Source: Syntrophaceae bacterium
Lineage (GTDB): Bacteria; Desulfobacterota; Syntrophia; Syntrophales; Smithellaceae
Length of the DNA: 64,000 nt
Reading direction: 5' to 3'
NCBI GenBank assembly: GCA_018436925.1
Contig: JAHDKI010000020.1
Span: 151,501 to 215,500, forward strand
Made by a program: the position numbers and the translations under genes. Shown here piece by piece: positions 8,782-32,318 of the stretch. The notes under the pieces are model-generated. The model saw nothing but the letters and a program-made list of their open reading frames with translations, was not told where the DNA came from and ran no database searches. Position 1 is the first letter of the stretch. Each line of letters starts with the position of its first letter.

Positions 8782-8797
8782 TGCCGATCACCGCGTT

Positions 8798-10900: not shown

Positions 10901-10910
10901 GGCAGACTCC

Positions 10911-11129: not shown

Positions 11130-11687
11130 TCATCGATATAAATCAGCGTGGGCAAGAAGCGGGGCGTTGGCGTCTTTGGACGAGAGAATCGGCGCTTTGC
11201 CCTGCAAACCCGTCTGCGGCCAGTCGATGCCGATGGCCGGGTCGTTCCACAAAAGCGATCTTTCGTATTGGGCCGCCCAGTAATCGGTGGTCTTATAGAG
11301 AAATTCAGCAAAGTCCGAAAGCACCAGAAAGCCGTGCGCGAAGCCTTCTGGAATCCACATCTGGCGGCGATTTTCGGCAGAAAGTTCCGTGCCGGTCCAG
11401 CGTCCGAAGGTAGGCGAGGATTTCCGCAAATCCACCGCCACGTCAAATACGGCGCCCACAACCGCGCGGACCAGTTTGCCCTGGGGTTGTTGAATCTGGT
11501 AGTGCAGGCCGCGCAGAACATTCTTTGCCGAACGGGAATGATTGTCCTGAACAAAGGTCGTGGCGAGGCCGGTTTTTTCATGCCAGAGGCGCTGGTTGAA
11601 GCTTTCGAAGAAAAAGCCCCGGTCGTCGCCGAAGACGGCAGGCTCGATGATGAATACGTCGGGAATGTTGGTTTTAATGATGTTCAT
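11130..11687 (-). CDS. rfbC: dTDP-4-dehydrorhamnose 3,5-epimerase
   Basis: 185 aa, the usual length for RmlC. Family blocks visible are FIIEPAVFGDDRGFFFESFN, FVQDNHSRSAKNVLRGLHYQ with the catalytic His, VFDVAVDLRKSSPTFG, and IPEGFAHGFLVLS. It converts dTDP-4-keto-6-deoxyglucose to the L-lyxo form during dTDP-L-rhamnose synthesis. The gene is hemmed in by heptamer arrays on both sides: the array before it runs to within a few bases of the ATG, and I see no Shine-Dalgarno sequence. Its partner rfbA lies 1.6 kb away, with toxin-antitoxin genes in between. rfbB and rfbD are not in the window. Confidence 0.95.
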   Translation of the reverse strand: MNIIKTNIPDVFIIEPAVFGDDRGFFFESFNQRLWHEKTGLATTFVQDNHSRSAKNVLRGLHYQIQQPQGKLVRAVVGAVFDVAVDLRKSSPTFGRWTGTELSAENRRQMWIPEGFAHGFLVLSDFAEFLYKTTDYWAAQYERSLLWNDPAIGIDWPQTGLQGKAPILSSKDANAPLLAHADLYR

Positions 11688-13285: not shown

Positions 13286-14179
13286 TTATGATATGTGAAA
13301 GGTCAGTTTTTCCTTCATGATGCGTTCCAGGTAGTCGCGGTAGCTTGATTTCGGCGTTTCGTCGATGACCTGTTTCATTTTCTTTTTGTCGATAAATTCC
13401 TTCCGGAAGGCGATTTCTTCCAGGCAGGCGATTTTCAAGCCCTGTCGGGCTTCAAGCGTGCCGATGAAATGGCTGGCTTCCAGAAGGCTGGTGTGCGTGC
13501 CGGTGTCAAGCCAGGCGATGCCGCGGCCCAGCGGCACGGCTTTAAGCTGACCGCGGCGCAGATACTCCATGTTCACATCAGTGATTTCAAGCTCGCCTCG
13601 GGCGGACGGTTTCATCGCCTTGGCGATACCGACGATATTCTGATCGTAGAGGTACAGGCCGGGCACGGCATAGTTGGATTTGGGTTTGGCGGGTTTTTCT
13701 TCAATGCTTAAGGCTTTGCCTTCGGCATCGAATTCAACCACACCGTAGCGCTCGGGGTCGGTGACATAGTATCCGAAGATGATGGCGCCGTTTTCAAAAT
13801 TATCGACGATCTTGTTCAAATCCATTTTTCCGTAGAAAATGTTGTCGCCCAGAATCAGGCAGACGGCTTCTCCGTTGATGAATTCCTCGCCGACCAAAAA
13901 TGCCTGGGCGATGCCCTTGGGTTCGGGCTGAACTTTATACGACAGCTTGATGCCCCAGCGGCTGCCGTCGCCCAGCAGGGCCTCGAAACGTGGCGTGTCC
14001 TGCGGGGTGGAGATGATCAGGATATCGCGGATGCCCGCCGTCATCAGCGTGCCCAGCGGATAGTAGATCATCGGCTTGTCATAAACGGGTTGAAGTTGCT
14101 TGCTGGCAACCAGGGTAAGCGGGTAAAGCCGACTTCCTGCGCCGCCTGCCAGAACAATTCCTTTTTGTAATCGTTTCAT
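13286..14179 (-). CDS. rfbA: Glucose-1-phosphate thymidylyltransferase
   Basis: 297 aa, standard RmlA length. The nucleotide-binding start [34 protein letters not shown] and [21 protein letters not shown] are all intact. It makes dTDP-glucose from dTTP and glucose-1-phosphate, the first step of dTDP-L-rhamnose and related dTDP-sugars. A ribosome-binding site CGGAGTT precedes the ATG. It is the last gene before the toxin-antitoxin patch and lies 84 bp after the EFR1 gene. Only RfbA and RfbC of the four-step pathway are in view. Confidence 0.96.
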
Positions 14180-14263: not shown

Positions 14264-15049
14264 TTATTCCCGATGCATCAGGTCTTCAATGCGGATGTCG
14301 GGATGATGATACCGTTTTTGATTCATGGTGCCTTTGCCGTTTTGAATGGCGCGGTTCGGACACCAGTGAATGCACGCCAGGCACATCTGGCAGCGTTTTC
14401 CCCAGCGGACGGCGTCGGAGACGGTAATATTGTTTTCGGGGCAAATCCTGGCGCACAGCCCGCAGAGGTTGCATTGGTCGGTTGTCCAGAAACGATTGGG
14501 AACCCGGTAAAGAATGCGATGACGAAACATGTTGCGCATTCCTTTGAGGTGTTTCCGCAACGAGGCGGAACCGCAATAGGGGGGTGTTTCCCGCGAGAGT
14601 ATGCGCAAGGCGATCTCGGATACGCAGGCTTCAGCGGCTTTCACCCGTCGATCCGTTTCCTGATCGGAATTGGTGGAATTGCCGGTAGTGATGCTGTTTC
14701 CGGGCATAAGAACCGCAAAGCCCGCATGCAGACGGCGGCCGTTTTTCTTCAGAATCCGATCGAGCGTGAAGTGTGAAAAACCGACATCGCCGTTGTGGGT
14801 GGCGACGGCATAGACATAGGCGTCCGCCGGCAGTTTCAAATTGCCGACAAGTCGTTTCACCATTTCCGGAATATCCTGGCAGCACACGGGAAAGACGATT
14901 CCAAAACTTGCACAATCGACATTGAATCGGGCATTGCGCAAGACTTCAACGGCGGAGAAAATTTCCGTGTCCGGCAGTTTTGCGGCCAGGTATCTTGCAA
15001 CGGCAAGGGAATTTCCGGTGCCCGTAAAGTACAGAAGAATATTTTTCAT
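14264..15049 (-). CDS. EFR1-type ferrodoxin: flavodoxin domain plus two [4Fe-4S] clusters
   Basis: 261 aa from ATG 15049; further upstream the frame only overlaps the YdcF-like gene. ILLYFTGTGNSLAVARYL at the N-terminus is the FMN-binding loop of a flavodoxin-like fold. Near the C-terminus, CNLCGLCARICP and CQMCLACIHWCP are two ferredoxin-type cluster motifs. EFR1 family proteins shuttle low-potential electrons in anaerobes. It is 1 bp from the YdcF-like gene and continues the operon that begins with the polyketide genes, so it may supply electrons for a step in that pathway. The partner enzyme is unknown. Confidence 0.85.
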   Translation of the reverse strand: MKNILLYFTGTGNSLAVARYLAAKLPDTEIFSAVEVLRNARFNVDCASFGIVFPVCCQDIPEMVKRLVGNLKLPADAYVYAVATHNGDVGFSHFTLDRILKKNGRRLHAGFAVLMPGNSITTGNSTNSDQETDRRVKAAEACVSEIALRILSRETPPYCGSASLRKHLKGMRNMFRHRILYRVPNRFWTTDQCNLCGLCARICPENNITVSDAVRWGKRCQMCLACIHWCPNRAIQNGKGTMNQKRYHHPDIRIEDLMHRE

Positions 15050-15050
15050 A

Positions 15051-15695
15051 TCAAAAGCCGGTGACCCATTCATGAAACAAACCGGCATAGTTGGTAAGAA
15101 CCCATTTAGCCGATTGGCTGTTGAGCCACCAGCGGGCGGGGTTATAGTTTCCGGGCAGCACCGCCACAATCCCGACGGGAATTCCGGGCAGCAGTGCGCG
15201 GCGATGCACCAACCAGGTCTTCCGCGCATGGGTGGCAGGGGCCATCACATTGACGCCTTTGGCTGCAATGCCTTTTTCGCTGATGATGTTTTTCACCGCT
15301 GCCGCCATTGCCGCGCTGCGGTGCGCTTCGGTCATCGGCGCATGGCATTCCATCAACCGGTCTTCAGGCACGCCCAGGGAAACCAAACGCCGGAACATGG
15401 AAGATTTCCTCCCGCGATTTGCGGAATCCTCTTTATCGGTTTGTTCACGAAGTCCGCTGACCAGCAATAGTCTGTATTGCCCGGATGCAAATTCACGCGC
15501 TGCCGCCTGCGCAACGACGGCGGGCATCCATTCCTCCACCACAAGGATGTCGGCGCCCTCTGAACGCTGTGTGACCGCCAGGAACTGGTGCGCGTGGATA
15601 AAGAAAAGGGTCATCAGCAGGGCGGCGGCGACAAGTAAAATCAACCAGCTCTGCCAGGTCGGCCACCAGATGGTTTTTTGTTTGAAGAATTTCAC
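15051..15695 (-). CDS. YdcF/ElyC-like membrane protein (DUF218)
   Basis: 214 aa. A single N-terminal membrane segment (residues ~15-35) precedes a globular domain. ADILVVEEWMPAVVAQAA and LLLVSGLREQ match the opening of DUF218, and VMAPATHARKTW near residue 150 is the later block. E. coli relatives (ElyC, SanA, YdcF) act in envelope or peptidoglycan-precursor and lipid-carrier processes, but the reaction is not settled. The start overlaps the polyketide synthase stop by 4 bp, so the two are translated together. I infer an envelope-linked role for the product. Confidence 0.72.
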   Translation of the reverse strand: MKFFKQKTIWWPTWQSWLILLVAAALLMTLFFIHAHQFLAVTQRSEGADILVVEEWMPAVVAQAAAREFASGQYRLLLVSGLREQTDKEDSANRGRKSSMFRRLVSLGVPEDRLMECHAPMTEAHRSAAMAAAVKNIISEKGIAAKGVNVMAPATHARKTWLVHRRALLPGIPVGIVAVLPGNYNPARWWLNSQSAKWVLTNYAGLFHEWVTGF

Positions 15696-18600
15696 GGCAG
15701 GTGTTTGAGCAGAATTTCCGCGATTTCTTGGACGTTGGGCTCATCGAGCATGTTTTGACGGAATTCAGGCACTTCATACATGTGCAGTTCGCCGGTCAGC
15801 AGGCCGCTCCAGCCCAGCATCGGATCGGGGATCAGTCCTGCCGGTTGCCTTCTGGCCCGCAGGAACAATGTTTTGCCGTCGTAGGGTTTCGGCCGGTAAC
15901 GCGCCCAGGCCCGATCGTTGGCGTCGGCGATGTTTTCAAGATGGTAGACCAAAGAATGCTCTTTGATTCGGAAAGGCGACCCGGCAGGCATTCGGTCGAG
16001 CAGTCGTTCAATTTTGTTCTGGGTAAGGTCTCGCATTCGCTCCATCCGCATCCAAATGCGCTGCATTTTCTTTTTGAAGGGTTGCCCGGATAATTCCGAC
16101 CACTCCAGCGCGCCCCGGTCGTAAAGTTTACACAAAAAACGCCTCAATGTATTGGTTCCGGGTTTATAGGTGTTAAAAAGATGCGTGGCGGAATTTATTA
16201 AAACCAGGAGCCGGACCTCTTCATGCTCCGCTCGCAGCAAATGGGCGAGTTCGAGCGACAGGTACCCGCCGAAGCAATAGCCGCCGAGGTAATAAGGGCC
16301 TTTGGGTTGAACGGATCGAATCACTTTCAGATATTCGACGGCCATGTCTTCAACATCCTGTTCTTCCACGGGCGAGCCGTCCAGACCTCGGCATTGAATG
16401 GCATAAACCGGTCGGTCGGCCTTAAGCAGGTTGGCCAGGGGATGGTACTCAAGAATGTTGCCTCCGTGGCTGTGCAAAAGGAAGAAGGGCGGTTTCGATC
16501 CTTTGATGTTGAGGGGAACGAGATAAGAGGCGGCGGTTCCGGATTTCCATTTTTCAATATGCCGTAAAAATTCGACAATGGTGGGCGCTTCAATAAGAGA
16601 GGCAAGCGGCAGGCGCATACCGAAGTTTTTTTCCAGTTCGGTGATGATGCTGACGGCTAAAAGTGAATGGCCGCCCAGTTCAAAGAAGTTGTCGTCGGGT
16701 TTGATGGCGTCCACGCCCAGCGCTTTGCACCAGATATGAATCAGATCTTCCTGGGTTACAGAGCGCTTTTTGTGCCGGTTTTTTCCGGTCAAGGCCGTTG
16801 GCCAAGAGAGTTTTTTCATTGTTTCCCGCAAGCGGGAGGCGGGCTTGACGGTGGTACTTTGCGGTTGCGACCCTGCGCCAAGCCAGAAGTGCTGGTGTTC
16901 GAAGGCATAACGGGGCAGACTGACACGGCTGCGTGCCTCGCCGTGATAAAAAACACGGGGGTCGAAATCCGCGCCGGAGCACCACAGCGATCCGAGCGCC
17001 CGGATGAAAAAGGCCTGATCCGGCACTTTTTGGTGAGGATGACGCGCACAGGGAATGGCCGGAATGCCGGAAACCGGGTCGCTGTGTTGCCGGGCGATGG
17101 AACACAGGGTGTTGCCGGGGCCGACTTCCAGAAAAACGGCCGACGGGAAACGCTGGGCGGCCGCAATAAGGTTTTCTCCAAACCTTACGGTGCGCCTCAG
17201 GTGGTGGGCCCAGCTCGATGGATCGCCGATTTGTTCGGCTGTGGTCCAGCCGCCGGTCAGATTGGAGGCCAGCGGAAGGATGGGCGGCTTTTTCGGGAAA
17301 CGATGAACGATGTCGCTGAAAGTCCGGGCAGCCGGTTCCATCATATGCGAGTGAAAAGCGTGAGACGTTTGAAGGCGACGGAACATCATGCCGGATTCTT
17401 CGAGTTTTTTTTCAAAGCCCTCGATATCCTCTGTTAACCCGCTGACCACACAAATGGACGGCGCGTTGATGACGGCCAGATCCAGTTCCGCAGGAAGGAT
17501 TTCTCGAAGCGCGGTTTCGGCCAGTGGAACGGCGATCATTGAGCCTCTGGGCATGGATTGCATCAGTTTTCCGCGTTCACGGACAAGCTCAACGGCGTCC
17601 GTCAAAGCAAAAACGCCCGCCACGCAGGCGGCTGCGTATTCCCCAATGCTGTGGCCCACTACGGCAGCCGGCGTGACTCCGTAGGCGTCAAGCAGGCGCG
17701 ACATGGCGTATTCAAAGGCAAATAAGGCCGCCTGAGATATGGCGGTTTGGTTGACGGTCGCCGCGAGTTCTTCGTTATCCGTATAAAGGATGTCGATGAG
17801 CGGCGCTTTACCGGCAAGCGGACCGAAAAGCCGCGAGCAATCGTCGAGGGCGTCACGAAACACCGGTTCGGAACAGTACAGATCATAGCCCATTTTGGGA
17901 TACTGCGTCCCCTGGCCTGAATACAGAAAGACAACGGGGCGCTTGCCCTGATTCGCCTCGCCTTCCGTGGAATACAGGATGTTGGGTTGCGCAAGCACAG
18001 TCGCCGCAGCGGCGGTGGAATCCGCGACCACGCAGCGTCTGTAATGAAGCGGCGTTCTTCCTGCGGACAGCGTCCAGGCGATGTCGGCAATGGCGCCTTC
18101 ATGATCGTGTTTGAGGTGCTCTGAGAGATTGTTCGCATTGGCGGTCAAGGCGCCCGGCGTGGCGGCGGCAAGAGGAAACAGGTGCCATTTTCGCAAGGTG
18201 GGCGAGGATCCGCCCCGGCCGGTGTATTCTTCCACAATGACATGCGCGTTGGTTCCGCCCATTCCGAAGGAGCTGACGCCCGCTATCCTTCGACCGTTGT
18301 TCGGTTCCCACCAGTCGGTTAGTTTATTGACGACATAGAAAGGGCTTTCGGAAAGCCGAAGCTCGGGATTGGGTTCGGCCACGTTGATGGTGGGCGGAAG
18401 CTGCCTGTGCTTCAGCGCGCAAATTGTTTTGATCAGTCCGGCGATGCCGGCCGCCACATCCAGATGCCCGATGTTGTTTTTAACGGAGCCCAGGCCGCAA
18501 AAGCCGCATTTGGCGGTGGATTGCCTGAACACATGGGTCAGCGCGGCAACTTCAATCGGGTCGCCCAGTTGTGTGCCGGTTCCATGGGCTTCAATGTAGG

Positions 18601-19528
18601 TGATCTCTTCGGGATGAACGCCGGCCATGGTTTGAGCCATGGTGACCAGCTCAATTTGGCCCGATACGCCCGGCGCGGTGTAGCCTGCCCGCGAGGCGCC
18701 GTCGTTATTAACCGCGTAACCGCGGATGACGGCGAGGATGTTGTCGCCGTCTTCAACGGCGTCGGCCAGCCGGCGGAGTGCAACGACGCCGCAGCCTTCG
18801 CCCAGAACGGTCCCGTTGGCGGATTGATCAAACGCCCGGCAAAAGCCGTCCGGAGAGAAAATGTCGCCCTCGCGGTAGAGATATCCGCGGGCGCGCGGCG
18901 TCTGCAGATAGACGGCGCCGGCAAGCGCCATATCGCACTGGTAGGTAAGCAGCGATTGGCAGGCCAGACTGACGGCGACCAGCGAGCTGGAGCAGGCGGT
19001 CTGAACAACCATGGCCGGACCGCGCAGATTCAGTTTGAATGCGATCCGTGTGGCCAGATAGTCTTTTTCATTGCTGATGATGGCCTGAGAATCCGCGACT
19101 TCTTCAAAAAGTCCGCGTGAAATGATGTTTTTTAAAAAATAATTGTTCAGCCCGATGCCGGCCCAGATGCCGATGAGGCCTGAAAACCTCTGTGGATCGT
19201 GGCCGGCGCTTTCTAAAGCTTCCCACGCGCATTCGAGCATGATTCGCTGTTGAGGATCGATCAGCTCGGCTTCTTTGGGGCTGTATCTGAAGAGTCGCGC
19301 ATCGAAACCGCCCGGGTGGTCCAAGACGGGCATGCGGCGGATGTAGTCGGACCGCCTCGCCGTTTCTTGAGGCACGCCGTCGCGGATGACATCCTCGACG
19401 GAAAATTCCGTAAAACAGTCCCGGCCCGCGACCAAATTGGCCCAGTATTGTTCAACGTTTTCCGCTCGGGGAAATCGTCCGGCTAATCCGATGACCGCAA
19501 TGCCTTCTAAAGAATCGTTTTCAGACAT
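15692..19528 (-). CDS. Modular polyketide synthase KS-AT-ACP-TE
   Basis: 1278 aa. The ketosynthase (1-430) has Cys179 in TACSSSL, His315 in EAHGTGT and His355 in NNIGH. The acyltransferase (530-830) has GHSIGE (Ser627) and HAFH near 723-726, which points to malonyl-CoA. The ACP has LGGHSL with Ser955. The C-terminal thioesterase-like domain (from ~1010) has GGYCFGG, with Cys1085 in place of serine. The usual VPG-x-H motif near the end reads VPEFRQNML, so the catalytic His is absent. There are no reducing domains. One round of malonyl extension with an unreduced beta-keto product, or a starter handed over from the C-FkbH-ACP protein, is expected. It is 8 bp from that gene. Confidence 0.93.
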   Translation of the reverse strand: MSENDSLEGIAVIGLAGRFPRAENVEQYWANLVAGRDCFTEFSVEDVIRDGVPQETARRSDYIRRMPVLDHPGGFDARLFRYSPKEAELIDPQQRIMLECAWEALESAGHDPQRFSGLIGIWAGIGLNNYFLKNIISRGLFEEVADSQAIISNEKDYLATRIAFKLNLRGPAMVVQTACSSSLVAVSLACQSLLTYQCDMALAGAVYLQTPRARGYLYREGDIFSPDGFCRAFDQSANGTVLGEGCGVVALRRLADAVEDGDNILAVIRGYAVNNDGASRAGYTAPGVSGQIELVTMAQTMAGVHPEEITYIEAHGTGTQLGDPIEVAALTHVFRQSTAKCGFCGLGSVKNNIGHLDVAAGIAGLIKTICALKHRQLPPTINVAEPNPELRLSESPFYVVNKLTDWWEPNNGRRIAGVSSFGMGGTNAHVIVEEYTGRGGSSPTLRKWHLFPLAAATPGALTANANNLSEHLKHDHEGAIADIAWTLSAGRTPLHYRRCVVADSTAAAATVLAQPNILYSTEGEANQGKRPVVFLYSGQGTQYPKMGYDLYCSEPVFRDALDDCSRLFGPLAGKAPLIDILYTDNEELAATVNQTAISQAALFAFEYAMSRLLDAYGVTPAAVVGHSIGEYAAACVAGVFALTDAVELVRERGKLMQSMPRGSMIAVPLAETALREILPAELDLAVINAPSICVVSGLTEDIEGFEKKLEESGMMFRRLQTSHAFHSHMMEPAARTFSDIVHRFPKKPPILPLASNLTGGWTTAEQIGDPSSWAHHLRRTVRFGENLIAAAQRFPSAVFLEVGPGNTLCSIARQHSDPVSGIPAIPCARHPHQKVPDQAFFIRALGSLWCSGADFDPRVFYHGEARSRVSLPRYAFEHQHFWLGAGSQPQSTTVKPASRLRETMKKLSWPTALTGKNRHKKRSVTQEDLIHIWCKALGVDAIKPDDNFFELGGHSLLAVSIITELEKNFGMRLPLASLIEAPTIVEFLRHIEKWKSGTAASYLVPLNIKGSKPPFFLLHSHGGNILEYHPLANLLKADRPVYAIQCRGLDGSPVEEQDVEDMAVEYLKVIRSVQPKGPYYLGGYCFGGYLSLELAHLLRAEHEEVRLLVLINSATHLFNTYKPGTNTLRRFLCKLYDRGALEWSELSGQPFKKKMQRIWMRMERMRDLTQNKIERLLDRMPAGSPFRIKEHSLVYHLENIADANDRAWARYRPKPYDGKTLFLRARRQPAGLIPDPMLGWSGLLTGELHMYEVPEFRQNMLDEPNVQEIAEILLKHLP

Positions 19529-19536
19529 AAGACAGG

Positions 19537-22500
19537 TTAGCGTCGCTTTTCCTTAAGACGTTTGAATGAATCCGGAAGATGGCGGCCGCGCAGGGCTTCC
19601 CTCTGACGTTTGGCGGCCAGGGTCGCTGTTTCGTCCGGCGCATGGACCGCCGTTGAGCCTCCGTCGATGTAGGAGGCAAGCTCGGAAATGGTCGGATATT
19701 TGAACAGATCGATGATGGAGACGTTCATTGCGTAATTGCGCTTCAGCTCGATGGCGATGCGGACCATCAGCAAAGAGGTTCCTCCGACTTCAAAAAATCT
19801 GGTTTGCGTGCTGATGCGGTCAATGCCCAGAATTTTCCGCCAGACGTCCGCGATGATTTTTTCGGTTTGCGATTCCGGCGCTGCGCCGGACAGGGCGGCA
19901 GCCGCCGCGGATCTTGTGCGGGCGTCTATGGCCTTGCGCTCAACGGCGCGAAGGATGGCATCGACGGATCGCAGGTTTCCGGCCAGGCGGACAAACGGCT
20001 CGCGATTCTGTATGCTGATACTGTCGGAGGCTTCCGGCTTGTCCTGGCCGGGTGCGGTTTGCGCTTCTTCCGCGGAAGCCGCGACGGATTCGTAGCGAAA
20101 GCCGGCCAGTTTTTCGGCGCCGAGATGCAGGCCGTTTTCACTGTCGCGGTTTCCGCCGCACAGTTCGTTGAGTTTGGTCAGGAAGGTTCGCGCCGGCTCG
20201 TTCCGATCGGTTGTTTTGACGGGAAAAATAATTTCGCTTAATCCCGCCTGCCTGGCCTGTTGGGCAAGGTATGATGCCATTCGGAATTCCACGCTGCGGC
20301 CCAGCGCCCGGCAGCTCAGAAACATGCCGTCCACCCGGTAGGCGCCTTCCTTTGCGCTGGCCAGCATGGCGCCGACCAGGCCGTAATCGCCGAAGCGGTC
20401 GCGAACGCGCGCGATATGGGCCGACATACCGGGCGTGGTTGCATATTGTGCAACGTCCTGCGTGGTTAAACGCAGCGTCGTGGTGTTGAACTGATTTGTC
20501 CGGACACTCAGTTGGGCAAGCCGGTCGTAGTCGGCTTCCTCGGCCGGATTCAGATCGATTTTCAGCTCAAGTTTTTCCAGAAACTCGGCCAGCGATCCCG
20601 CGCTTTGTTTGAGGCTGTCGCGGATTTGCTCGGAGCGATAATGGTCTTGCCGCTTTTTATCCTCGGCGGTCGCCCTTGGATGATCCAAAAGCCAGCAGTG
20701 TTCCAGCCAGCGGGTTCGCTCGTCCCAGGCGTCCGGAAATTCGGGACAGAAAATGGCGGGATATCGCAAACCGACTTCAGCCCGTTCCAGAGGGTTGTCG
20801 TCCAGGAAGGCGACCGCGTCCATGCCGATGTTCATGTCTTTGACCAGCGCCCGCAGGTTGTCGGATTTCGCCTCCCAGTTGATCTTCCAAAACGAAATGT
20901 GCTCGCGTTTGAGCAGCATGCCGGGATGCTGATCAAAGACCGACCAGGCGTCCTCTTCGCGGTTTTTGCTGCACAGGCACAAAATGACGCCCGCCTGGTA
21001 CTGTTTGATGAGGAATTCCTGAAAATCGCGTTGATGCGGGCCGATGACGACGCCGGCGGGCCCGTCTTCTCCGACGACGCCCTGCCAGAGGGTGCCGTCG
21101 CAATCCACCACCAGAGCTTTAACCGGTTTGAGCGAAAGTGTGTTGACGGACCGGACAAGCGACGTGGAAAGCGCGGTTAGGTAATCGCGGGTGTAGGGAA
21201 TCGCGCCGAGCGTTTCTCCAATCGGTTCGTAATACTCGGTCACCGGATACCAGCGATTGATCTCGGGATAAGTCAGAACCGTCATGCCCGGAACGGATCG
21301 CAGCGTCTCTAAAAAGAGTTCAATCGTATCGGCTGCCGCCTCTTCAACGGCCTTGCCGGAAGGCGACGGGGGGCACAGAATAAAACATAGTGGGATGTTC
21401 GTATTTTTTGCGCAGGCGCTCAATGCCTGTTTGAGTTCTTCGCAGGCGGACGCCACTTTGCTTTGTGTTTCACCGGGCGTCGAATTTTTTAATGTTTCCT
21501 TGTCGATCAGATCTTCAAGCCGCAGCATGACGACATTGCAGCCTTTTCGGTTGGTGCGCAGCAGGCTGGACGGATCGAGCAACTCCTGAAAGACCTGGTT
21601 GAACGCCGCGAAGCGAACGGCCGTGTTCCATTGAAGGTTATCAAACCAGAAATCCAGAAACTCGCCGATAAATTCGGCCGAAAACGAAGATGCAACGGCC
21701 ATAACGGGCCCGGCTTCTTCTTTTGCTTTGCTTGTTTTATCCCCAATGGCCTGGGTTGCGGCTTCGGCGCCGCCAACTGGAATCAGGGTGATCTTTTCCG
21801 TATGCAGTTCCGGATCGGCACAGATTTTCCTTGCCGCATCCAGAAACTGCTCGCGAAGAGCTTCCACCGTTTTTATCCGGAGTTTGGTTTCATCATATTT
21901 AATGATGCCGGTGATGCCGTCCGATTCTTCCCAGAAGGTGGCAAAAAGATCGAGCTGCGGGCCGCCCGGATGGATATATATAGGCTTGACGTTCAGCCCG
22001 TCGAGTTGCAGCCTCATGGGATGTTCGAAGGTGAAGCCCGCCTGGTATAACGCGTCGCCTCCGATGATGCCGTCGCGTCGCATGATTTGAACCAGGTGGT
22101 AGTAGGGCATTTCCTGCATGCGGTGCAGCTGGAGAAGCCCTATTCGCACTCGTCGCAGGGCTTCACGCAAAGTCGGATTATCGGCGATGTTGAAGGTTAA
22201 AGGCAGGCTGTTGACGAAGCATCCCAGTGTGTTTTTAAATTCTTCCTTGCGACGGTTGCTCATCGGGATGCCGACACACAGTTTCGACTGCCCGCTCGCG
22301 CGCGCCAAAGTCAGCGCCCAGGCGGCAAGAAGCACGAGATAGGGTGTAACTTTTTCCTGCCGGGAAAACGTCTTGACCGCTTGGAAGAGGTCGGGCGGCA
22401 GCGCGACCGGCAAAGGGGGCGTCGCCATCGCTTGGTTGGATTCGGTTTCCGGAGGATTGTCCGTCGCCGATCGAAGCGCGGGTTGCGCGCCTTCAAGGTA

Positions 22501-23133
22501 GCTGCGCCACATGCCCTCCATTTTTTTGCACTCGTCGGTTTGCATCCAGTCGTGCTGCCAGGCCGAGAAAACGGCGTAGTCGTTTTGCTCGGGGGAATCC
22601 GGAATCGGTTGTCCGGCGAGGATCTGCCGGTAGGTTGCCGCTAATATCTCCGCCAGCAGGTCTTTGGTGGCCAGGTCGAAAACAATATGGTGCGCGGTCA
22701 TGACCAGGATGTGAGCATGCGGACCGATGCGCAAAAGCCGGAATCGGATGGGCGGTCCGGCGGCCAGATCAAACGGTTTACGGATTTCTTCGTAGACGGC
22801 CTGCCGAACAACGGCGTCATCGGCGGTTTGCAAAGCCTGCAGCTGCAGGGATTGGACTTTCAGGGCGATCGGCTGAACCGGAGCCGCCTTTTGCATCACG
22901 ACGCCGTCATCGTTCATCGCGAAGGTGGTTCGGAAAACCGGGTAGCGGCGAAGAACGGCGTTGATCGTTTTTTCAAGGGCACCCGCATCAAGGTCTCCTT
23001 CGATGAGATTGACGCAAGGTTGATTGTAGGACGGTGAGTCCGGGGCAAACTCATGGATCACCCAGAATTGAAGTTGGATCTGGGATGCCGGGCATGTGCT
23101 CGTCTCAGCAAAGGAAGGATATTGTGTGCTCAT
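19537..23133 (-). CDS. Condensation domain - FkbH glyceryl-loading - ACP protein
   Basis: 1198 aa. Residues 15-450 are a condensation domain with HHIVFD (His148/149, Asp153). Residues ~480-1040 are an FkbH-like region: an N-terminal SGNH-like part, a HAD-IIIC motif VVDCDGTLWQGV at 675-686, and a C-terminal GNAT-like part. Residues ~1080-1160 are a carrier domain with VGGTSL, Ser1120. Known FkbH domains dephosphorylate 1,3-bisphosphoglycerate and load a glyceryl group on an ACP. There is no adenylation domain, so the condensation domain must use carrier-bound substrates made elsewhere. With the free ACP and the polyketide synthase it forms a short assembly line. Confidence 0.92.
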   Translation of the reverse strand: MSTQYPSFAETSTCPASQIQLQFWVIHEFAPDSPSYNQPCVNLIEGDLDAGALEKTINAVLRRYPVFRTTFAMNDDGVVMQKAAPVQPIALKVQSLQLQALQTADDAVVRQAVYEEIRKPFDLAAGPPIRFRLLRIGPHAHILVMTAHHIVFDLATKDLLAEILAATYRQILAGQPIPDSPEQNDYAVFSAWQHDWMQTDECKKMEGMWRSYLEGAQPALRSATDNPPETESNQAMATPPLPVALPPDLFQAVKTFSRQEKVTPYLVLLAAWALTLARASGQSKLCVGIPMSNRRKEEFKNTLGCFVNSLPLTFNIADNPTLREALRRVRIGLLQLHRMQEMPYYHLVQIMRRDGIIGGDALYQAGFTFEHPMRLQLDGLNVKPIYIHPGGPQLDLFATFWEESDGITGIIKYDETKLRIKTVEALREQFLDAARKICADPELHTEKITLIPVGGAEAATQAIGDKTSKAKEEAGPVMAVASSFSAEFIGEFLDFWFDNLQWNTAVRFAAFNQVFQELLDPSSLLRTNRKGCNVVMLRLEDLIDKETLKNSTPGETQSKVASACEELKQALSACAKNTNIPLCFILCPPSPSGKAVEEAAADTIELFLETLRSVPGMTVLTYPEINRWYPVTEYYEPIGETLGAIPYTRDYLTALSTSLVRSVNTLSLKPVKALVVDCDGTLWQGVVGEDGPAGVVIGPHQRDFQEFLIKQYQAGVILCLCSKNREEDAWSVFDQHPGMLLKREHISFWKINWEAKSDNLRALVKDMNIGMDAVAFLDDNPLERAEVGLRYPAIFCPEFPDAWDERTRWLEHCWLLDHPRATAEDKKRQDHYRSEQIRDSLKQSAGSLAEFLEKLELKIDLNPAEEADYDRLAQLSVRTNQFNTTTLRLTTQDVAQYATTPGMSAHIARVRDRFGDYGLVGAMLASAKEGAYRVDGMFLSCRALGRSVEFRMASYLAQQARQAGLSEIIFPVKTTDRNEPARTFLTKLNELCGGNRDSENGLHLGAEKLAGFRYESVAASAEEAQTAPGQDKPEASDSISIQNREPFVRLAGNLRSVDAILRAVERKAIDARTRSAAAAALSGAAPESQTEKIIADVWRKILGIDRISTQTRFFEVGGTSLLMVRIAIELKRNYAMNVSIIDLFKYPTISELASYIDGGSTAVHAPDETATLAAKRQREALRGRHLPDSFKRLKEKRR

Positions 23134-23216
23134 AACCGTTTTGCCCCCTTGAACTTAGAACCGGATTGCGTCCCGTACTGTTGGGGGCGGGACTCTGGCC
23201 GGTTTGTTGGTTTGGA

Positions 23217-23468
23217 TCACCCGTTTTTACTGACGATAAAGGCGACCATTTTTTTTACCGATCCGAAATTATGCCGGGTCATGTCCGTTTCGGCGACTTT
23301 TATGCCGAATGTCTCTTCAATAAAGGCGGATATTTCGACCAGGCCGATGGAATCAATAACGCCCTGATCCACAAGAGATTCTTCAAGGTTGAATTCATCG
23401 GGTTCCACCATGAAGCTTTCACAGATAAAGGCCACAAGCTTATCTTGAATCTCTTTTTCCATGAGCAT
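23217..23468 (-). CDS. Free acyl carrier protein
   Basis: 83 aa. The phosphopantetheine site is VDQGVIDSIGLVEI with Ser40; the four-helix ACP pattern and length are normal. It would be activated by the Sfp-type transferase encoded 2 kb upstream in the same operon. It may carry the FkbH-derived glyceryl unit or the donor for the condensation domain, since FkbH systems often use a separate ACP. It lies between the AsnB-like gene (20 bp) and the C-FkbH-ACP gene (83 bp). Confidence 0.92.
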   Translation of the reverse strand: MLMEKEIQDKLVAFICESFMVEPDEFNLEESLVDQGVIDSIGLVEISAFIEETFGIKVAETDMTRHNFGSVKKMVAFIVSKNG

Positions 23469-23488
23469 GCATTTTCCCCTTCAGAAGG

Positions 23489-25474
23489 TTAGTGTCGGGC
23501 GTCCGGCTCGTTGAGGTCCACAAGGAGGAGCTTTTCGTCGAGTGATTTGCGCTGCGGGTTGGCGGCGCAGTGCAAGGCTATTTGAGCGGATAACAGGAAA
23601 ATCAGCATCATGTTGTCCCGGTATCCGACCTGGTGGGCCGATCGTTGCGTAAAGCGATTCAGGAAGCGGGCGACAAATCTTTCATCGAAGACGCCGTAAT
23701 GTCGAATTCTTTCCGGTGAAAGGTATTCTTCAACAAGAGGCACCGGCCGCCCGTCGCGGATGAATGCTCTTAAATCGGGCGCCTGATAGGGGAGCTTGGG
23801 GCGGTCGATGATGGAATTCGGAATCAATCCCCTGAAGGCGCTGCGCAAAATATGTTTCTGCGAGAATCCGTTGAGTTTGTAGCTGTCCGGCCAGTAGAAG
23901 GCGCGTTCCACCAATCGATAGTCCAGATAGGGAAAACGTCCTTCGATTCCGTGTCCCAGCGACATACGATCGCCCTGCGAGGACAAAAGGTATCCATCCA
24001 GCAGAGTGGCCATTTCCAGGAATTGATTTTGCTGCAAGGGCGTCCAGCGATCGTAGTCGGACGGGAAAGACGCGGTGATTTTATCGATGAGGTCGTCCTG
24101 ATTGTATTTCACAAGGTGATCTTTGTTCAAGGCAGCCGCAAGAACGGTGTTGTTGCGGATTCTGATGTTCAGACCGGCCAGCGGGTTTGTGATCGTGTCG
24201 AGGAAATCTTCGTAGTAAAGTTTCATCAAGCCGTACGCTTTGGCGTCGGCATAGTGCCGCAGATGGGGGTAGAGGCGTTTTATCAGCAGCGGGCGAACGG
24301 AGGATTGGGGCGCTTTAGCCCAGAAGCGCAAGAGTTTAAGCTCTTTGTATGAATCATAACCGAACAGAATCTCATCGGACGCTTCTCCGGTGATCACGAC
24401 TTTGATGTTGTTGTCGCGCACCAGTCGCGAAAGAAGGTATAGCGGAACCGGCGCGGTCCGGAAAAGCGGTCGTTCCGCGTGACGCACGACCTGCAAAAAA
24501 TTGTCGCAAATCGTGTCATAGCTGATGTGCGCCGCATGGTGTTCGGAGCCGATGAAAGAGACCATTTCTTTCTGATAGACGCTTTCATCAAAATCCGAAT
24601 CGCCGAACGTGACGGAAAAAGACTTGAATCTTTCGCCCATCACCTGCGAGGTGAGCAGCGCCAGAACGGAGGAATCAATGCCCCCGCTCAGATACATGCC
24701 GACGGGAACGTCGCTTCGAAGCCTCAGGCGGACTGCGTCGCGCAGCATTTCACGCAATTCATCTCTGGCCTCTTCGAAGGAGGCCGGCGGCGTCTGCGGC
24801 ATGCAACCCAGAGAGTAAAACCGATATGCGGCGGGCGGCCCGCCGTCCCGGTAAGTTTCAACGGTTCCGGGCTGGACGGTGCGGATGTTATTGTATACCG
24901 TGTCTGAACCGACGGTGTTCCAAAGAAGGCCGTGCTCGAACAAATGCTGAATGTTATAGGTCCGTCGGAAACCGGGGAGCACGTCGAAAGCTTTCATTTC
25001 CGAGGCGAAGTACCAGGCGCCCCGCCATCGGGTGACAAAAAGCGGGCGCACGCCGTATCGGTCGCGGGCCAAAATCATTTGACGGTTGTTTTGATCCCAT
25101 AAAATGATGGCGAATTGTCCGTTGAATCGTGAAAAAGCGTCTTTACCCCAAAAACGGTAGGCCCTGATCACAACTTCCGTGTCGCTGCGCGTCGTGAAAA
25201 CGATTCCATGCTGTTCGAGTTCTTCGCGCAGTTCAATATAATTATAAACTTCGCCATTGTACGAGATGACAAGACCATCGGCCGCCATCGGCTGATGCCC
25301 CATTTTCAGATCGACAATGGACAGACGCGCGTGCCCCAGGGCGACGTTTTTTCCGATGTAAACCCCCCATTCATCGGGGCCTCGGTGGGCCAGCATGGCG
25401 GTCATGGCTGTGACGGTCGGGCGCAGTTCGCTGCTGTCGGGGTCAAATCTGAGGATACCGCTTATTCCGCACAT
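23489..25474 (-). CDS. Asparagine synthase-like amidotransferase in the polyketide cluster
   Basis: 661 aa. MCGISGIL exposes the Cys2 nucleophile; SYNGEVYNY near 71-79 and the pyrophosphate loop YLSGGIDSSV (~261-270) are intact. It is distinct from the AsnB at 5165-7036. The start overlaps the end of the phosphopantetheinyl transferase gene by 13 bp. Members in biosynthetic clusters amidate or cyclise carboxylates using ATP and glutamine. I infer it forms an amide on the polyketide/glyceryl product or on the sugar it modifies. A plain asparagine synthase is less likely in this context. Confidence 0.85.
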   Translation of the reverse strand: MCGISGILRFDPDSSELRPTVTAMTAMLAHRGPDEWGVYIGKNVALGHARLSIVDLKMGHQPMAADGLVISYNGEVYNYIELREELEQHGIVFTTRSDTEVVIRAYRFWGKDAFSRFNGQFAIILWDQNNRQMILARDRYGVRPLFVTRWRGAWYFASEMKAFDVLPGFRRTYNIQHLFEHGLLWNTVGSDTVYNNIRTVQPGTVETYRDGGPPAAYRFYSLGCMPQTPPASFEEARDELREMLRDAVRLRLRSDVPVGMYLSGGIDSSVLALLTSQVMGERFKSFSVTFGDSDFDESVYQKEMVSFIGSEHHAAHISYDTICDNFLQVVRHAERPLFRTAPVPLYLLSRLVRDNNIKVVITGEASDEILFGYDSYKELKLLRFWAKAPQSSVRPLLIKRLYPHLRHYADAKAYGLMKLYYEDFLDTITNPLAGLNIRIRNNTVLAAALNKDHLVKYNQDDLIDKITASFPSDYDRWTPLQQNQFLEMATLLDGYLLSSQGDRMSLGHGIEGRFPYLDYRLVERAFYWPDSYKLNGFSQKHILRSAFRGLIPNSIIDRPKLPYQAPDLRAFIRDGRPVPLVEEYLSPERIRHYGVFDERFVARFLNRFTQRSAHQVGYRDNMMLIFLLSAQIALHCAANPQRKSLDEKLLLVDLNEPDARH

Positions 25475-26319
25475 GCGCTGATTTCTTCTCGACTAGCTTC
25501 GGCCGGATGTTGGCTCGGTTTTGAAAAGTTGACTTCATGAAAAGCGAGTGAACGGGAAATCTTATGTTGAGGATGCCATTGCCAAAATCGCGCTTGAAAG
25601 GGATGATCTTCAACGGCGAAAGCCGCCGTGTAAAACGGCAACGCAAAGAAGGTTCCGATCATCCAGCGCCTGTCGTGGATAAATGCGTTTTGCCAATCCG
25701 GTTGTCCGATCATCAATTCGGAAACGGTGGATAATTCAAGGTTGTCCATAGGCAGGGACAAACCGTCTCCGGTCGCCTTAAGCACAGCTTCTTTGGCGAC
25801 CCACGCGTCAAAGAAATGATTTGACTGAGTATCGGAAGGCAGCCTGCAAAATATTTCGTGCTCTCTTGCGGTAAAAACTCTTTCGGCCATTTTCATCATG
25901 TCCGGCAGATCCCTTATATGTTCAATATCCACACCAATGGCATGGTCGCGAGAAAAAGCGAGCAGGGCGATATCGTCTGAATGGGCGATATTGAACTGAA
26001 TATTAAAGGGCGCGTTTTCCACCGACAGGCAAGGTTTGCCGTTTTTCCCGTATTGGAAATGAATATCTTCGGCGTTTGTCTCGAGGTAGTTTGCCAGAAT
26101 ATTTCTAAGAGCCGTTCTGCAGACGATAAATCGTCTTCTGTCTTTTGCATAAACGAAACGATTGGCTCTGGCCATTTCGTCCGGCGGCAGTGAAAGGATT
26201 GCTTCGTCATACGTCGCCGGCGGTTGGTTCAGCTCGGCAAGCCAGATATGGACTTCATGGTCCGGCAGTCGGCAATCGGATGGCGGCTTTATAAAATGAG
26301 ATGGTTGGTGGGTCATCAT
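25462..26319 (-). CDS. Sfp-type 4'-phosphopantetheinyl transferase
   Basis: 285 aa, the length of the Sfp/EntD broad-specificity class. GVDIEHI (129-135, metal-binding Asp131 and Glu133) and WVAKEAVLKATG (173-184) are the two diagnostic motifs; FNIAHSDD near 110 is a third. It transfers phosphopantetheine from CoA to the serine of carrier domains. Three carriers are encoded immediately downstream (free ACP, C-FkbH-ACP, polyketide synthase), so a dedicated activator is the obvious role. It is the first gene of the compact biosynthetic operon and is preceded by 272 bp without a gene. Confidence 0.93.
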   Translation of the reverse strand: MMTHQPSHFIKPPSDCRLPDHEVHIWLAELNQPPATYDEAILSLPPDEMARANRFVYAKDRRRFIVCRTALRNILANYLETNAEDIHFQYGKNGKPCLSVENAPFNIQFNIAHSDDIALLAFSRDHAIGVDIEHIRDLPDMMKMAERVFTAREHEIFCRLPSDTQSNHFFDAWVAKEAVLKATGDGLSLPMDNLELSTVSELMIGQPDWQNAFIHDRRWMIGTFFALPFYTAAFAVEDHPFQARFWQWHPQHKISRSLAFHEVNFSKPSQHPAEASREEISACAE

Positions 26320-26591: not shown

Positions 26592-27629
26592 TTATCCCAT
26601 ATGGCGGTACGCCGTTTTGCCGATCAGTTTTAAGGCCGGAATCGGAAGCTTTCGGAAAATCCTTTGATAGACAGGATTGCCGTCCGGCGGGGCGTTTACA
26701 AAGCCCTCTTTTTTCAGGTCATAACGGTAATAGGAAATGGTTTGACTTTCCCCGCCCCAGCCCGCCTTGAACTGGATGAGTCCCTGGTGCTGCGTTTCCG
26801 TTCTTCCGAAACAAAGATGCTTGTAACCTCTGTCGCAGCTCCATTTGATGGCCTTCCACATGATCAGATTGTTGGCCCGAAGGTGTTGCCGGCGATCGTC
26901 GGAGGCTCCGTATTTGTAGATGACCTGATCGCCGAAACACAGATAAACGTTGGCTGCGATCACTTCGTTGCCGAGTGTTGCCAGTGCGACAAATCCCTTT
27001 TCGTTTGCGATGATGGCCTCGAACAAACGGCGGAAAAAGCGCGACGGCTGCGGCGGCAGGCCGTGTTTGCGCCGGGTCAGCACATTGAGACGGCAAAATT
27101 CCTTCAAGGCGTCGGCCGAGTTGGAGATATTGACCTCGACGCGTTGGCGTTTCGCCTTTTTGATGTTTCGTTTTGTGGAATCCCGCAGTCCGCTGAAAAC
27201 CGCTTCATGCCCGCCTGACAAATCCAGCCGATGGCCGACATGGCAGACAAAAGGGGGCTTTTCGGCCAGATATTTTTCCCCTCCGCGAATTTCGAGATAG
27301 CTCCAGTTTCGCTCGCGCCCCAGCGTCAGGGCTTTCTGCCACAAGGCTGAAAATTGATCCGTGCTTTGCGCCACCGGTTCGCAGATGTCGGTGAAGGGAA
27401 GCGATACGCCCCGAATGCCGGTGATTCGGCTTCTGACTTCCATAACGGCCAGCAGATTGTCGATTTTGCCTGCGCCGCTCGTTGTCAAATAATACGGTTT
27501 GTAGCCGTAGGATTGCGTCAGGATGTCCGCCCACTCGCGGCTGTGAAAAAAGGAAAAACCAGCCCCGAAGGCAAGCTGGTCGTTCCAGTTTTCACAATCC
27601 GATGGTCGAACAATTTTTACATCAGGCAT
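26592..27629 (-). CDS. FemAB-like GNAT-fold transferase
   Basis: 345 aa with the double-GNAT architecture of FemAB proteins. FSFFHSREWADILTQSYGYKPYYL near the N-terminus and the C-terminal half with CFGRTETQHQGLIQFKAGWG match the FemAB group associated with exosortase-type polysaccharide loci. FemAB enzymes join amino acids to glycan or peptidoglycan precursors, generally from aminoacyl-tRNA. The start overlaps the DegT aminotransferase gene by 8 bp, so both belong to one transcription unit. It may decorate the amino sugar made by that enzyme, though the transferred group cannot be deduced. Confidence 0.8.
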   Translation of the reverse strand: MPDVKIVRPSDCENWNDQLAFGAGFSFFHSREWADILTQSYGYKPYYLTTSGAGKIDNLLAVMEVRSRITGIRGVSLPFTDICEPVAQSTDQFSALWQKALTLGRERNWSYLEIRGGEKYLAEKPPFVCHVGHRLDLSGGHEAVFSGLRDSTKRNIKKAKRQRVEVNISNSADALKEFCRLNVLTRRKHGLPPQPSRFFRRLFEAIIANEKGFVALATLGNEVIAANVYLCFGDQVIYKYGASDDRRQHLRANNLIMWKAIKWSCDRGYKHLCFGRTETQHQGLIQFKAGWGGESQTISYYRYDLKKEGFVNAPPDGNPVYQRIFRKLPIPALKLIGKTAYRHMG

Positions 27630-28725
27630 AGTACCCTTTGATTTGTTGGGCGACGTAGGCGACCTGCTCGTCCGTCAGTTCCGCAAACATCGGCAGGGAA
27701 AGATATTGCGAAGCGCACTTTTCGGCGATCGGAAAGCTGCCTTCACGATATTTCAGAAAGCCGTAGGCATCCTGAAGATGGACGGGAACGGGGTAGTGGA
27801 TGCCGCAAGAAACGCCTTTTTCCGCCAGGTAGGCCATCAGCTTGTCTCGTTCGGGCGAGCGAAGCGCATAGATATGATAGACGTGTTTTGCATAGTCCAT
27901 TTCGCCGGGCACAATGATGTCTTTAACCGAGGCCAAAAGCTCGCTGTAGCGCTTAGCGTGCTTCCGGCGGGCGTCGTTCCAGTCGGCAAGGTGTTTGAGT
28001 TTCACGCTCAAAACGGCGCCCTGAATGCCGTCGAGTCTCGCATTCCAGCCGATGATGCCGTGATAATATTTTTTAGCCTGGCCATGGTCGCGGAACATAC
28101 GCATGTTGGCCGCAAGTGCGTCGTCATTGGTGACGACAGCGCCTCCTTCGCCGTAGGCGCCCAGATTTTTGCCGGGATAGAAGCTGAAACAGCCCGTGTT
28201 TCCCATCGATCCGGCTTTCCGGCCCTTGTATTCTGCGCCGTGGGCCTGGCAGGCGTCTTCAACAACTTTGAGGCCGTGCTTTTTCGCGATTTCGAGAATC
28301 GGGTCCATGTCGGCAGGCTGGCCGAACAGATGGACGGGGATGATCGCCTTGGTTTTTTTGGTGATGGCATTTGCAAGAAGCGCCGGATTCATGTTGTGCG
28401 TTTTTTCTTCGATGTCCACGAAAATCGGAATGGCACCGGCAAGAGATATGGCTTCAGCTGTGGCGATGAAGGTGTTGGGCGTCGTGATGACTTCGTCGCC
28501 GTGGCCGATGCCCAAAGCGACAAGCGACAGCCACAGGGCATCCGTACCGTTTCCGACGCCGATGCAGTGCTTGACGCCGCAAAAGTCGGCAAACGCCTGT
28601 TCGAATTTGGCGACATAAGGCCCTCCGGCAAAGGCCGTGTTTTCGATGACTTCGTTTATCGCCGGAAGAACTTCATCCTTGATGGTTTTATACTGCGCTT
28701 TGAGGTCTAAAAAAGGTACGTTCAT
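27622..28725 (-). CDS. DegT/DnrJ/EryC1 family sugar aminotransferase (WbpE/WlbC-like)
   Basis: 367 aa PLP enzyme. GNGTDALWLSL (59-69), VEDACQAHGAEYKG (155-168) and SFYPGKNLGAYGEGG, with the Schiff-base Lys at 186, are the DegT motifs. The closest logic is the WbpE/WlbC aminotransferase that makes the 3-amino group of UDP-2,3-diamino-uronic acids. A Gfo/Idh dehydrogenase and hexapeptide acyltransferase for the flanking steps are encoded just upstream. A strong AAGGAG site precedes the ATG. Between it and the acyltransferase lies a four-helix-bundle gene bounded by heptamer arrays. Confidence 0.88.
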   Translation of the reverse strand: MNVPFLDLKAQYKTIKDEVLPAINEVIENTAFAGGPYVAKFEQAFADFCGVKHCIGVGNGTDALWLSLVALGIGHGDEVITTPNTFIATAEAISLAGAIPIFVDIEEKTHNMNPALLANAITKKTKAIIPVHLFGQPADMDPILEIAKKHGLKVVEDACQAHGAEYKGRKAGSMGNTGCFSFYPGKNLGAYGEGGAVVTNDDALAANMRMFRDHGQAKKYYHGIIGWNARLDGIQGAVLSVKLKHLADWNDARRKHAKRYSELLASVKDIIVPGEMDYAKHVYHIYALRSPERDKLMAYLAEKGVSCGIHYPVPVHLQDAYGFLKYREGSFPIAEKCASQYLSLPMFAELTDEQVAYVAQQIKGYYA

Positions 28726-32313: not shown

Positions 32314-32318
32314 GTTCA

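Follow-up and report, generated by a model that had tools for sequence, protein, structure and literature searches.

What does a compact polyketide and FkbH assembly line contribute when it lies within a polysaccharide locus? We addressed this question for the window, that is, the whole 64,000-nucleotide stretch of Syntrophaceae bacterium DNA analyzed here. Our preferred answer, which we hold at a probability of roughly 0.5 (0.52), is that an accessory, exchangeable cassette, set into a conserved XrtA-like exopolysaccharide (EPS) operon after FemAB and ahead of the downstream glycan genes, builds an acyl group that decorates the EPS.

The cassette and its surroundings

A sequence-only reading had claimed seven same-strand genes; all are present from 26319 to 14264 on the minus strand, confirmed by ORF and domain profile searches with strong domain calls (Table 1). 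They run in the order phosphopantetheinyl transferase (PPTase), AsnB-like, free ACP, C-FkbH-ACP, KS-AT-ACP-TE, membrane-anchored protein and EFR1 ferredoxin. The junctions (−13, +20, +83, +8, −4 and +1 bp, respectively) bear out the dense packing that had been described, except that EFR1 probably does not overlap its membrane-anchored neighbor: 15049 (MKNILLYFTGTGNS...) is a more likely start for the EFR1 gene than 15229. The label "YdcF-like" for this neighbor was dropped for want of family support (neither Pfam, searched up to E = 5, nor NCBIfam gave a match); its single-sequence model, too poor for a fold search (pLDDT 54), shows a TM helix and alpha/beta elements only. The AsnB-like protein preserves the MCGISG N-terminus and SGGIDSS motif, and its closest PDB entry is 7ylz, a "hydroxyamidotransferase". 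The 272 nt that precede the PPTase gene showed no remarkable RNA folding (z −1.5), and a scan of viral contigs with the C-FkbH-ACP protein gave no match.

Table 1 Positions of the cassette and EPS features in the window
Feature	Position	Strand	Support
Sfp/HetI-type 4'-phosphopantetheinyl transferase (PPTase)	25462..26319	−	PF01648 1.1e-18; AASDHPPT_N 9e-15; HetI model 190 bits
AsnB-like glutamine-dependent amidotransferase	23489..25474	−	TIGR01536 464 bits (cut-off 267)
Free acyl carrier protein, DSIGLVEI	23217..23468	−	PF00550 1.4e-9
C-FkbH-ACP, 1198 aa	19537..23133	−	PF00668 1.8e-70; TIGR01686 289 bits; PF00550 9.8e-13
KS-AT-ACP-TE, 1278 aa	15692..19528	−	PF00109 6.3e-69; PF00698 5.6e-49; PF00975 4.2e-20
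Membrane-anchored alpha/beta protein, family unknown, GTG start	15051..15695	−	Low-confidence model, one TM helix
EFR1-family flavodoxin-ferredoxin	14264..15049	−	NF038196 210 bits (cut-off 75); 1-bp junction
FemAB/GNAT-fold protein, last EPS-core gene before slot	26592..27629	−	PF13480 1.2e-17; TIGR03019 137 bits (below cut-off 260)
DegT sugar aminotransferase	27622..28725	−	QdtB and WbpE among closest solved relatives
Hexapeptide-repeat sugar N-acetyltransferase	29313..29948	−	PF00132 8.6e-23; WxcM- and QdtC-like structures
Candidate Gfo/Idh-type UDP-sugar 3-dehydrogenase	29771..30796	−	PF01408; NF040723 164 bits (below cut-off 450)
EPS export and initiation core	30862..38087	−	TIGR03025, 03018, 03015, 03007, 03016, 03027, all below curated cut-offs
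Glucose-1-phosphate nucleotidyltransferase, RfbA-like; glycan genes resume	13286..14179	−	PF00483 4.5e-69
Glycan genes	1455..11687	−	Domain profile matches

The cassette is flanked at either end by EPS genes of the single co-directional operon that contains it. The export and initiation core encodes a polyprenyl sugar-phosphate transferase, tyrosine autokinase, XrtA-type ATPase, Wzz, BBP2 outer-membrane protein and Wza-type export protein; the glycan genes at the other end encode RfbC-like, GT4, polysaccharide deacetylase and GT2 proteins, a second AsnB (TIGR03108-like), a PaaK-like adenylate-forming protein, another GT2 and an ORF of unknown family (1455-2759, no Pfam match). A flippase and a ligase, which had also been named, were not identified among the scanned proteins. 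Judged by its model scores, the locus is XrtA-like only, below the NCBI curated cut-offs (bits/cut-off: TIGR03007, 276/278.85; 03015, 289/324.5; 03018, 217/230.65; 03027, 133/180; 03019, 137/260; 03108, 567/817).

The C-FkbH-ACP protein matches the vioprolide-type C-FkbH-T architecture. Its FkbH domain passes TIGR01686 (cut-off 146.65) with the HAD motif DCDGTLW and CSKN present, and has its carrier partner in cis (PF00550, residues 1094-1156; motif GGTSL); the C domain carries an intact HHxxxD (HHIVFD). C-before-FkbH domains cluster on the tree (13 changes vs 37.9 shuffled); the window C domain lacks starred support, which we counted against EPS decoration. No lineage was assigned to the FkbH domain of the window, which lies on a long branch with no starred placement.

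In the KS-AT-ACP-TE protein, KS motifs (TACSS, HGTGT, NIGH) and the Cys-His-His set are complete, and the ACP carries GGHSL. The AT is of the malonyl type: the HAFH motif reported earlier is there, together with GHSIGE. No reducing domain was found by domain profile search. The TE has a Cys nucleophile (GYCFGG), and the aligned catalytic His and Asp are replaced by Arg and Asn, so that the Ser/Cys-Asp-His triad of type I thioesterases is incomplete and plain hydrolysis by this TE is doubtful. The same triad loss was observed in both TEs of the deltaproteobacterial contig G438 and in L053, L048 and L095.

Recurrence in relatives and in distant genomes

Among same-genus genomes the cassette is sporadic, 3 of 20 carrying KS-AT-ACP-TE or else the AsnB-ACP-C start. 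The EPS core of congener G009 is 47-84% identical (DegT 80%) and keeps the gene order of the window; its slot after FemAB holds an acyl ligase resembling TIGR03098 (376 bits, cut-off 592), an ACP and an AsnB-like protein (36% identical, with Ser replacing the glutaminase Cys) instead of the PKS cassette. In congener G017, a full-length KS-AT-ACP-TE homologue (43%) comes with a different loader, A-ACP; FemAB/PPTase lies on one side, and a shared block of GT1 and deacetylase genes (GT1 74%) on the other. A third congener, G001, carries an AsnB copy (80% identical), likewise between PPTase and ACP (78%), and in both G000 and G001 the adjacent AsnB and ACP genes lie upstream of the C domain. The stretches read after FemAB in G028, G034, G073 and G037 held glycan genes and no PKS. 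The cassette is absent from most relatives that have this EPS core; the EPS therefore does not need it. FemAB orthologues occur in 21 of 155 class genomes, many without PKS. We rejected FemAB as a dedicated transferase of the product: its occurrence near KS-AT-ACP-TE (4 of 5 loci vs 2 of 78) is confounded because FemAB is an EPS core gene in many PKS-free genomes.

Farther afield, G438 encodes C-FkbH-ACP (32%) followed by KS-AT-ACP-TE (44%), both full-length homologues, plus FemAB; its contig also carries DegT (65%), Wza and a Wzc-like gene. The window KS is sister to the G438 KS (SH-aLRT 99). The proposed check, recurrence of the pair beside Wza/Wzx genes, thus came out positive in G438 and G017, with stand-alone FkbH-ACP(-TE) genes of other phyla lying beside glycosyltransferases. 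Where such genes lacked NRPS/PKS neighbors, glycosyltransferase or export genes lay within 6 kb in 17 of 22 loci, versus 5 of 62 for other FkbH loci (Fisher p = 1.9e-9, which overstates independence because the 22 loci are partly close relatives); 47 of 50 fused FkbH proteins had no glycan genes within 6 kb. The Acidobacteriota form combines FkbH-ACP with two GT4-type genes, and EPS/export loci with FkbH-ACP-TE occur in Planctomycetota, Cyanobacteria and Deltaproteobacteria-like bacteria. No EPS gene was seen near the full-length KS-AT-ACP-TE homologue of G358 (40%); the architecture alone is therefore not EPS-bound.

A candidate route and competing explanations

Architecture, packing, position, recurrence and loader exchange of the cassette are established; its product, bond types, acceptor and transfer step we infer. 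FkbH-family enzymes load D-1,3-bisphosphoglycerate as a glyceryl group onto an ACP. In the proposed route, the PPTase would, by its family, activate three carrier domains. A small dicarboxylic acyl group, which the AT would most likely supply as malonyl, would be placed on the free ACP; AsnB, encoded next to this ACP, may then amidate the group to a malonamyl-type unit, by analogy with the amidotransferase OxyD, which yields a malonamate starter (PMC6164072). FkbH, as its family suggests, would load glyceryl from D-1,3-bisphosphoglycerate onto its own ACP, and the C domain could esterify the glyceryl hydroxyl with the ACP-bound acyl group, as in vioprolide, where the ester-forming C domain of a C-FkbH-T module acylates the glyceryl unit (PMC8949500). 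KS-AT-ACP would then add one unreduced malonyl, giving a polar beta-keto chain of about five carbons that bears the ester; this chain may escape hydrolysis and be transferred to a repeat-unit sugar of the EPS, either by the Cys-type TE or by some other transferase that the operon encodes. No obvious dedicated acyltransferase for the product was found among the genes. The earlier proposal has partial support, by inference, for glycerate loading, one malonyl extension and a glycan link.

Surface-polysaccharide decoration is suggested because the cassette lies in a conserved EPS operon and glycerate loaders lie beside sugar-transferring enzymes in other phyla; the slot contents of G009 and G017, the G438 locus, the contrast of 17/22 with 5/62 and the TE triad loss count in the same direction, as do the precedents of glyceryl-bearing EPS, vioprolide, OxyD and Pks13. 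The G358 context, FemAB in many PKS-free genomes, the lack of an obvious dedicated acyltransferase and the absence of the cassette from most relatives count against it. The same sporadic occurrence, compatible with glycan decoration, is also compatible with a metabolite cluster that has settled in a variable slot, and would suit a free small-metabolite pathway that happens to sit in a recombination-prone part of the EPS operon (for example one making a tetronate, from a 4-hydroxy-3-oxo chain lactonizing off the carrier, an amide-bearing signal or a metal-binding compound). C-FkbH-ACP is standard in NRPS/PKS clusters, fused FkbH proteins mostly lack glycan genes nearby, a similar KS-AT-ACP-TE in G358 has no visible EPS genes around it, and a hydrolysis-impaired TE would suit spontaneous lactonization. 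However, the cassette showed no dedicated gene for export or resistance, EPS genes flank it on both sides in one operon, the same type recurs in the G017 and G438 EPS loci, and chemically related acyl-ACP genes occupy the slot in G009; we consider this pathway unlikely. Chance co-location was judged less likely because of the operon packing, G017 and G438.

The remaining alternatives change the chemistry or the site of attachment. AsnB might amidate the finished chain while the C domain either forms an amide or uses a sugar amine as acceptor, giving a different product: AsnB specificity is unreadable from sequence, the closest solved relative is a hydroxyamidotransferase, and in G009 an acyl ligase and ACP are accompanied by an AsnB-like protein, although one with the Cys-to-Ser change. 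The AsnB-ACP adjacency upstream of C in G000 and G001 fits loading before condensation, and the order AsnB, then free ACP, suits a malonamyl-type starter no less than amidation of the final product; we regard finished-chain amidation as improbable. More improbable still is a moiety that caps, anchors or carries the entire glycan chain, for which PKS genes of wcb/rkp capsule clusters are a described precedent (PMC3908369); here, the lack of reducing domains and the single extension predict a short polar chain, not a lipid, and the usual polyprenyl sugar-phosphate transferase is present.

Wider meaning and related systems

Glyceryl is given as a known EPS substituent in the passage of PMC4432689 that cites Kuo 1986, and we found no activated donor described in open-access text for exopolysaccharide glyceryl groups (e.g. 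those of gellan). Open-access literature likewise returned no paper on a gellan glyceryl acyltransferase gene cluster, nothing relevant on an FkbH-exopolysaccharide link, and no paper on exosortase with FemAB or on PKS within XrtA/PEP-CTERM (exosortase) EPS loci. We tentatively suggest, at somewhat under even odds, that FkbH-ACP marks a widespread undescribed route in which glycerate, plain or PKS-extended, is activated as a carrier-bound donor for bacterial glycan decoration; its versions would include the Acidobacteriota FkbH-ACP, FkbH-ACP-TE, and the C-FkbH-ACP/KS-AT-ACP-TE of the window. If true, FkbH-made carrier-bound glyceryl and exchangeable loaders would link NRPS/PKS chemistry to surface-glycan diversity, and clusters of this type that genome mining now records as orphan small-molecule pathways may be glycan-modifying systems.

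The window shares with vioprolide and cystomanamide modules the C-FkbH-ACP order, with FkbH replacing the A domain, whereas those systems use a FAAL-loaded fatty-acid donor and a long NRPS line, and release a free lipopeptide (PMC8949500); in the window a free ACP adjoins AsnB, there is a single KS-AT-ACP-TE module, and the setting is an EPS operon. Pks13 is likewise a one-elongation KS-AT-ACP-TE, whose TE releases the beta-keto chain onto a sugar, trehalose, but it has an N-terminal ACP, very long chains, FadD32 and a serine TE (S1533) (PMC9210659), unlike the Cys-type TE of the window without aligned His and Asp; the window protein stays below the Pks13 equivalog NF040607 (602 bits, cut-off 2100). 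By description, WcbR/RkpA are also type I PKSs within surface-polysaccharide clusters, although the source passages mention no FkbH, C or AsnB partners (PMC3908369); OxyD-type systems, also compared by description, similarly use an AsnB-like enzyme to supply an amidated malonyl starter, but OxyD serves a type II aromatic PKS (PMC6164072). XrtA/PEP-CTERM EPS loci have the same kinds of genes, with acyl ligase and ACP in the G009 slot, whereas all XrtA models fall below their curated cut-offs in the window; an exosortase is encoded elsewhere in the genome, on contig C15 outside the window (TIGR02602, 125.7 bits, cut-off 105.55).

The cassette and its operon

We examined the packing of the seven cassette genes (table below) and found junctions, in gene order, of -13, +20, +83, +8, -4 and +1 bp; because the spacing is this narrow, translational coupling is suggested at most of them. 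The usual motifs are retained in the window KS, AT, FkbH, C and amidotransferase domains and in all three ACPs, and every domain type of the cassette is already known.

Coordinates of cassette genes (window) and of comparison features (retrieved loci)
Feature	Position	Strand	Remark
PPTase	26319-25462	minus	first gene of cassette
AsnB-like amidotransferase	25474-23489	minus	motifs MCGISG, SGGIDSS
Free ACP	23468-23217	minus	
C-FkbH-ACP	23133-19537	minus	
KS-AT-ACP-TE	19528-15692	minus	
Membrane-anchored protein	15695-15051	minus	family not assigned
EFR1 ferredoxin	15049-14264	minus	last gene of cassette
Acidobacteriota operons, FkbH-ACP + two GT4-like glycosyltransferase genes	L077 9950-15523; L058, L074, L080, L084, L090, L094, L097, L100		
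Nitroreductase-like proteins (weak PF00881)	L109 1754-2956; L053 8671-9960		50% identical; two distant KS-AT-ACP-TE loci

All assigned genes of the exopolysaccharide (EPS) operon run in one direction, from Wza (38087) to the glycosyltransferases near position 2800. Upstream lie a Wza-type export protein, BBP2, Wzz, ATPase, tyrosine kinase, sugar-phosphate transferase, Gfo/Idh, hexapeptide acetyltransferase, DegT and FemAB, then the cassette, followed by RfbA, RfbC, GT4, deacetylase, GT2, a second AsnB, a PaaK-like protein and GT2. The Gfo/Idh, hexapeptide and DegT genes resemble a 3-acetamido-sugar pathway, and the solved structures nearest to the sugar genes include QdtB, WbpE and QdtC. The EPS genes match XrtA/PEP-CTERM models, every score being below the curated cut-off, and we therefore term the locus XrtA-like; an exosortase scoring above its cut-off lies on a different contig of the same genome.

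RfbC and RfbA are separated by a PIN-domain gene (11894-12319), and the hexapeptide and DegT genes by one for a 23S rRNA-intervening-sequence (four-helix bundle) protein (28883-29230); genes of similar look occupy matching positions in five comparison genomes (G018, G028, G034, G073, G098). GC content is 39-49% in the glycan genes 3' of the cassette (window 1-14000) and higher, mostly 51-61%, across most of the remaining window, cassette included.

The slot after FemAB in class relatives

FemAB orthologues were present in 21 of 155 class genomes. In G009, of the same genus as the window, the core from Wza to FemAB keeps the window order (47-84% identity; FemAB 54%), and the slot contains genes for a WcaF-like acetyltransferase, an acyl ligase similar to TIGR03098 (exosortase-A-associated), an ACP and, with Ser in place of the glutaminase Cys, an AsnB-like protein. 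In the congener G017, FemAB and PPTase precede a nitroreductase-like protein, a PaaK-like protein, A-ACP and KS-AT-ACP-TE (43% identical to the window protein across residues 4-1270), beyond which lie two further FemAB-like genes, a carbamoyltransferase, GT1 (74%), deacetylase (56%) and the remaining glycan genes. A short contig of another congener, G001, carries PPTase, AsnB (80%), ACP (78%) and the start of a C domain. In G028, G034, G073 and G037, glycan genes follow FemAB (nucleotide-sugar dehydrogenase-like, GT4, deacetylase, GT2), with no PKS in the stretches read. These slot contents indicate that the EPS core is constant while the slot swaps acyl-carrier chemistry; several of the contigs compared here and below are truncated.

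An AsnB-like protein adjoining an ACP in the comparison locus L127 (11938-13914) has Ser for the glutaminase Cys (MSGIAG), and so may accept a different amine in place of ammonia.

Recurrence in distant bacteria

The contig G438 (locus L031), recorded as Deltaproteobacteria bacterium Dive96_bin3.122, combines Wza, a Wzc-like gene, DegT (65%) and FemAB with MT-ACP, KS-AT-ACP-C-A-ACP-TE, radical SAM, MT-ACP, then C-FkbH-ACP, KS-AT-ACP-TE and FemAB. Identity to the window is 32% for C-FkbH-ACP, 44-45% for KS-AT-ACP-TE and 40-48% for FemAB, and the terminal KS domains are sisters in the KS tree (SH-aLRT 99). L053 (BMS3Bbin08) carries FemAB and PPTase, then methyltransferase, ACP, arginase-like, acyl-CoA dehydrogenase and A genes, and after these a nitroreductase-like protein sharing 50% identity with its G017 counterpart, followed by FkbH-ACP, C-A-ACP and KS-AT-ACP-TE. 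KS-AT-ACP-TE can also occur without visible EPS neighbours, as in the comparison genome G358, where no EPS gene was seen nearby.

One FkbH scan of 84,980 species genomes yielded 80 loci. With detection by home-made profiles (Pfam check for part only), a glycosyltransferase or polysaccharide-export gene lay within 6 kb of 17/22 stand-alone FkbH proteins (FkbH-ACP or FkbH-ACP-TE from retrieved loci free of NRPS/PKS genes) versus 5/62 of all others (Fisher p=1.9e-9, only indicative because the loci are partly related). In Bryobacterales/Solibacter-type Acidobacteriota, FkbH-ACP is followed by two GT4-like genes, in L077 with a thioesterase domain fused to the second GT4-like protein (PF00975 2.4e-45); these operons are possibly a dedicated glyceryl-glycan system. 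Planctomycetales and an Aquisphaera plasmid carry FkbH-ACP-TE amid GT2, Wzc-like and exosortase genes, and the FkbH locus of G429 has Wza, a Wzz/Wzc-like gene, an ABC-2 exporter and Wzy_C.

EPS glyceryl substituents are established (PMC4432689), and a PKS within a capsule locus is known from WcbR/RkpA (PMC3908369). The open-access literature searched yielded neither the cassette's domain combination, nor an exchangeable slot of this type in an XrtA-like EPS operon, nor the wider FkbH-glycan association.

Predicted acyl assembly and the TE domain

Observed directly are the genes with their motifs, packing and position, the exchange of loaders and the recurrence; the mechanism that follows is predicted. 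Judging from known families, FkbH would load glyceryl from 1,3-bisphosphoglycerate and AT would use malonyl-CoA. By analogy with OxyD (PMC6164072), AsnB and ACP would provide an amidated malonyl unit, and by analogy with vioprolide (PMC8949500) the C domain would esterify a glyceryl hydroxyl. The architecture points to a single malonyl extension and no reduction. The predicted passage of the acyl product to the glycan is the least certain step. Pks13, a KS-AT-ACP-TE enzyme with release onto sugar (PMC9210659), is the precedent; however, the window TE does not keep the usual motifs, having a Cys nucleophile (GYCFGG) and, by alignment, Asn and Arg at the positions of the catalytic Asp and His. 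Because the usual triad is absent, either the window TE would work differently or transfer would be by another enzyme.

Cys and the lack of His at the aligned position are common to both G438 TEs, L053, L048 and L095. A group of terminal TEs with a Cys nucleophile and without the canonical His includes those of the window, L020, L053, L048, L095 and L046; Y/F-P-A-G often stands at the canonical His position, and these TEs are mostly C-terminal in KS-AT-ACP-TE or related hybrid proteins.
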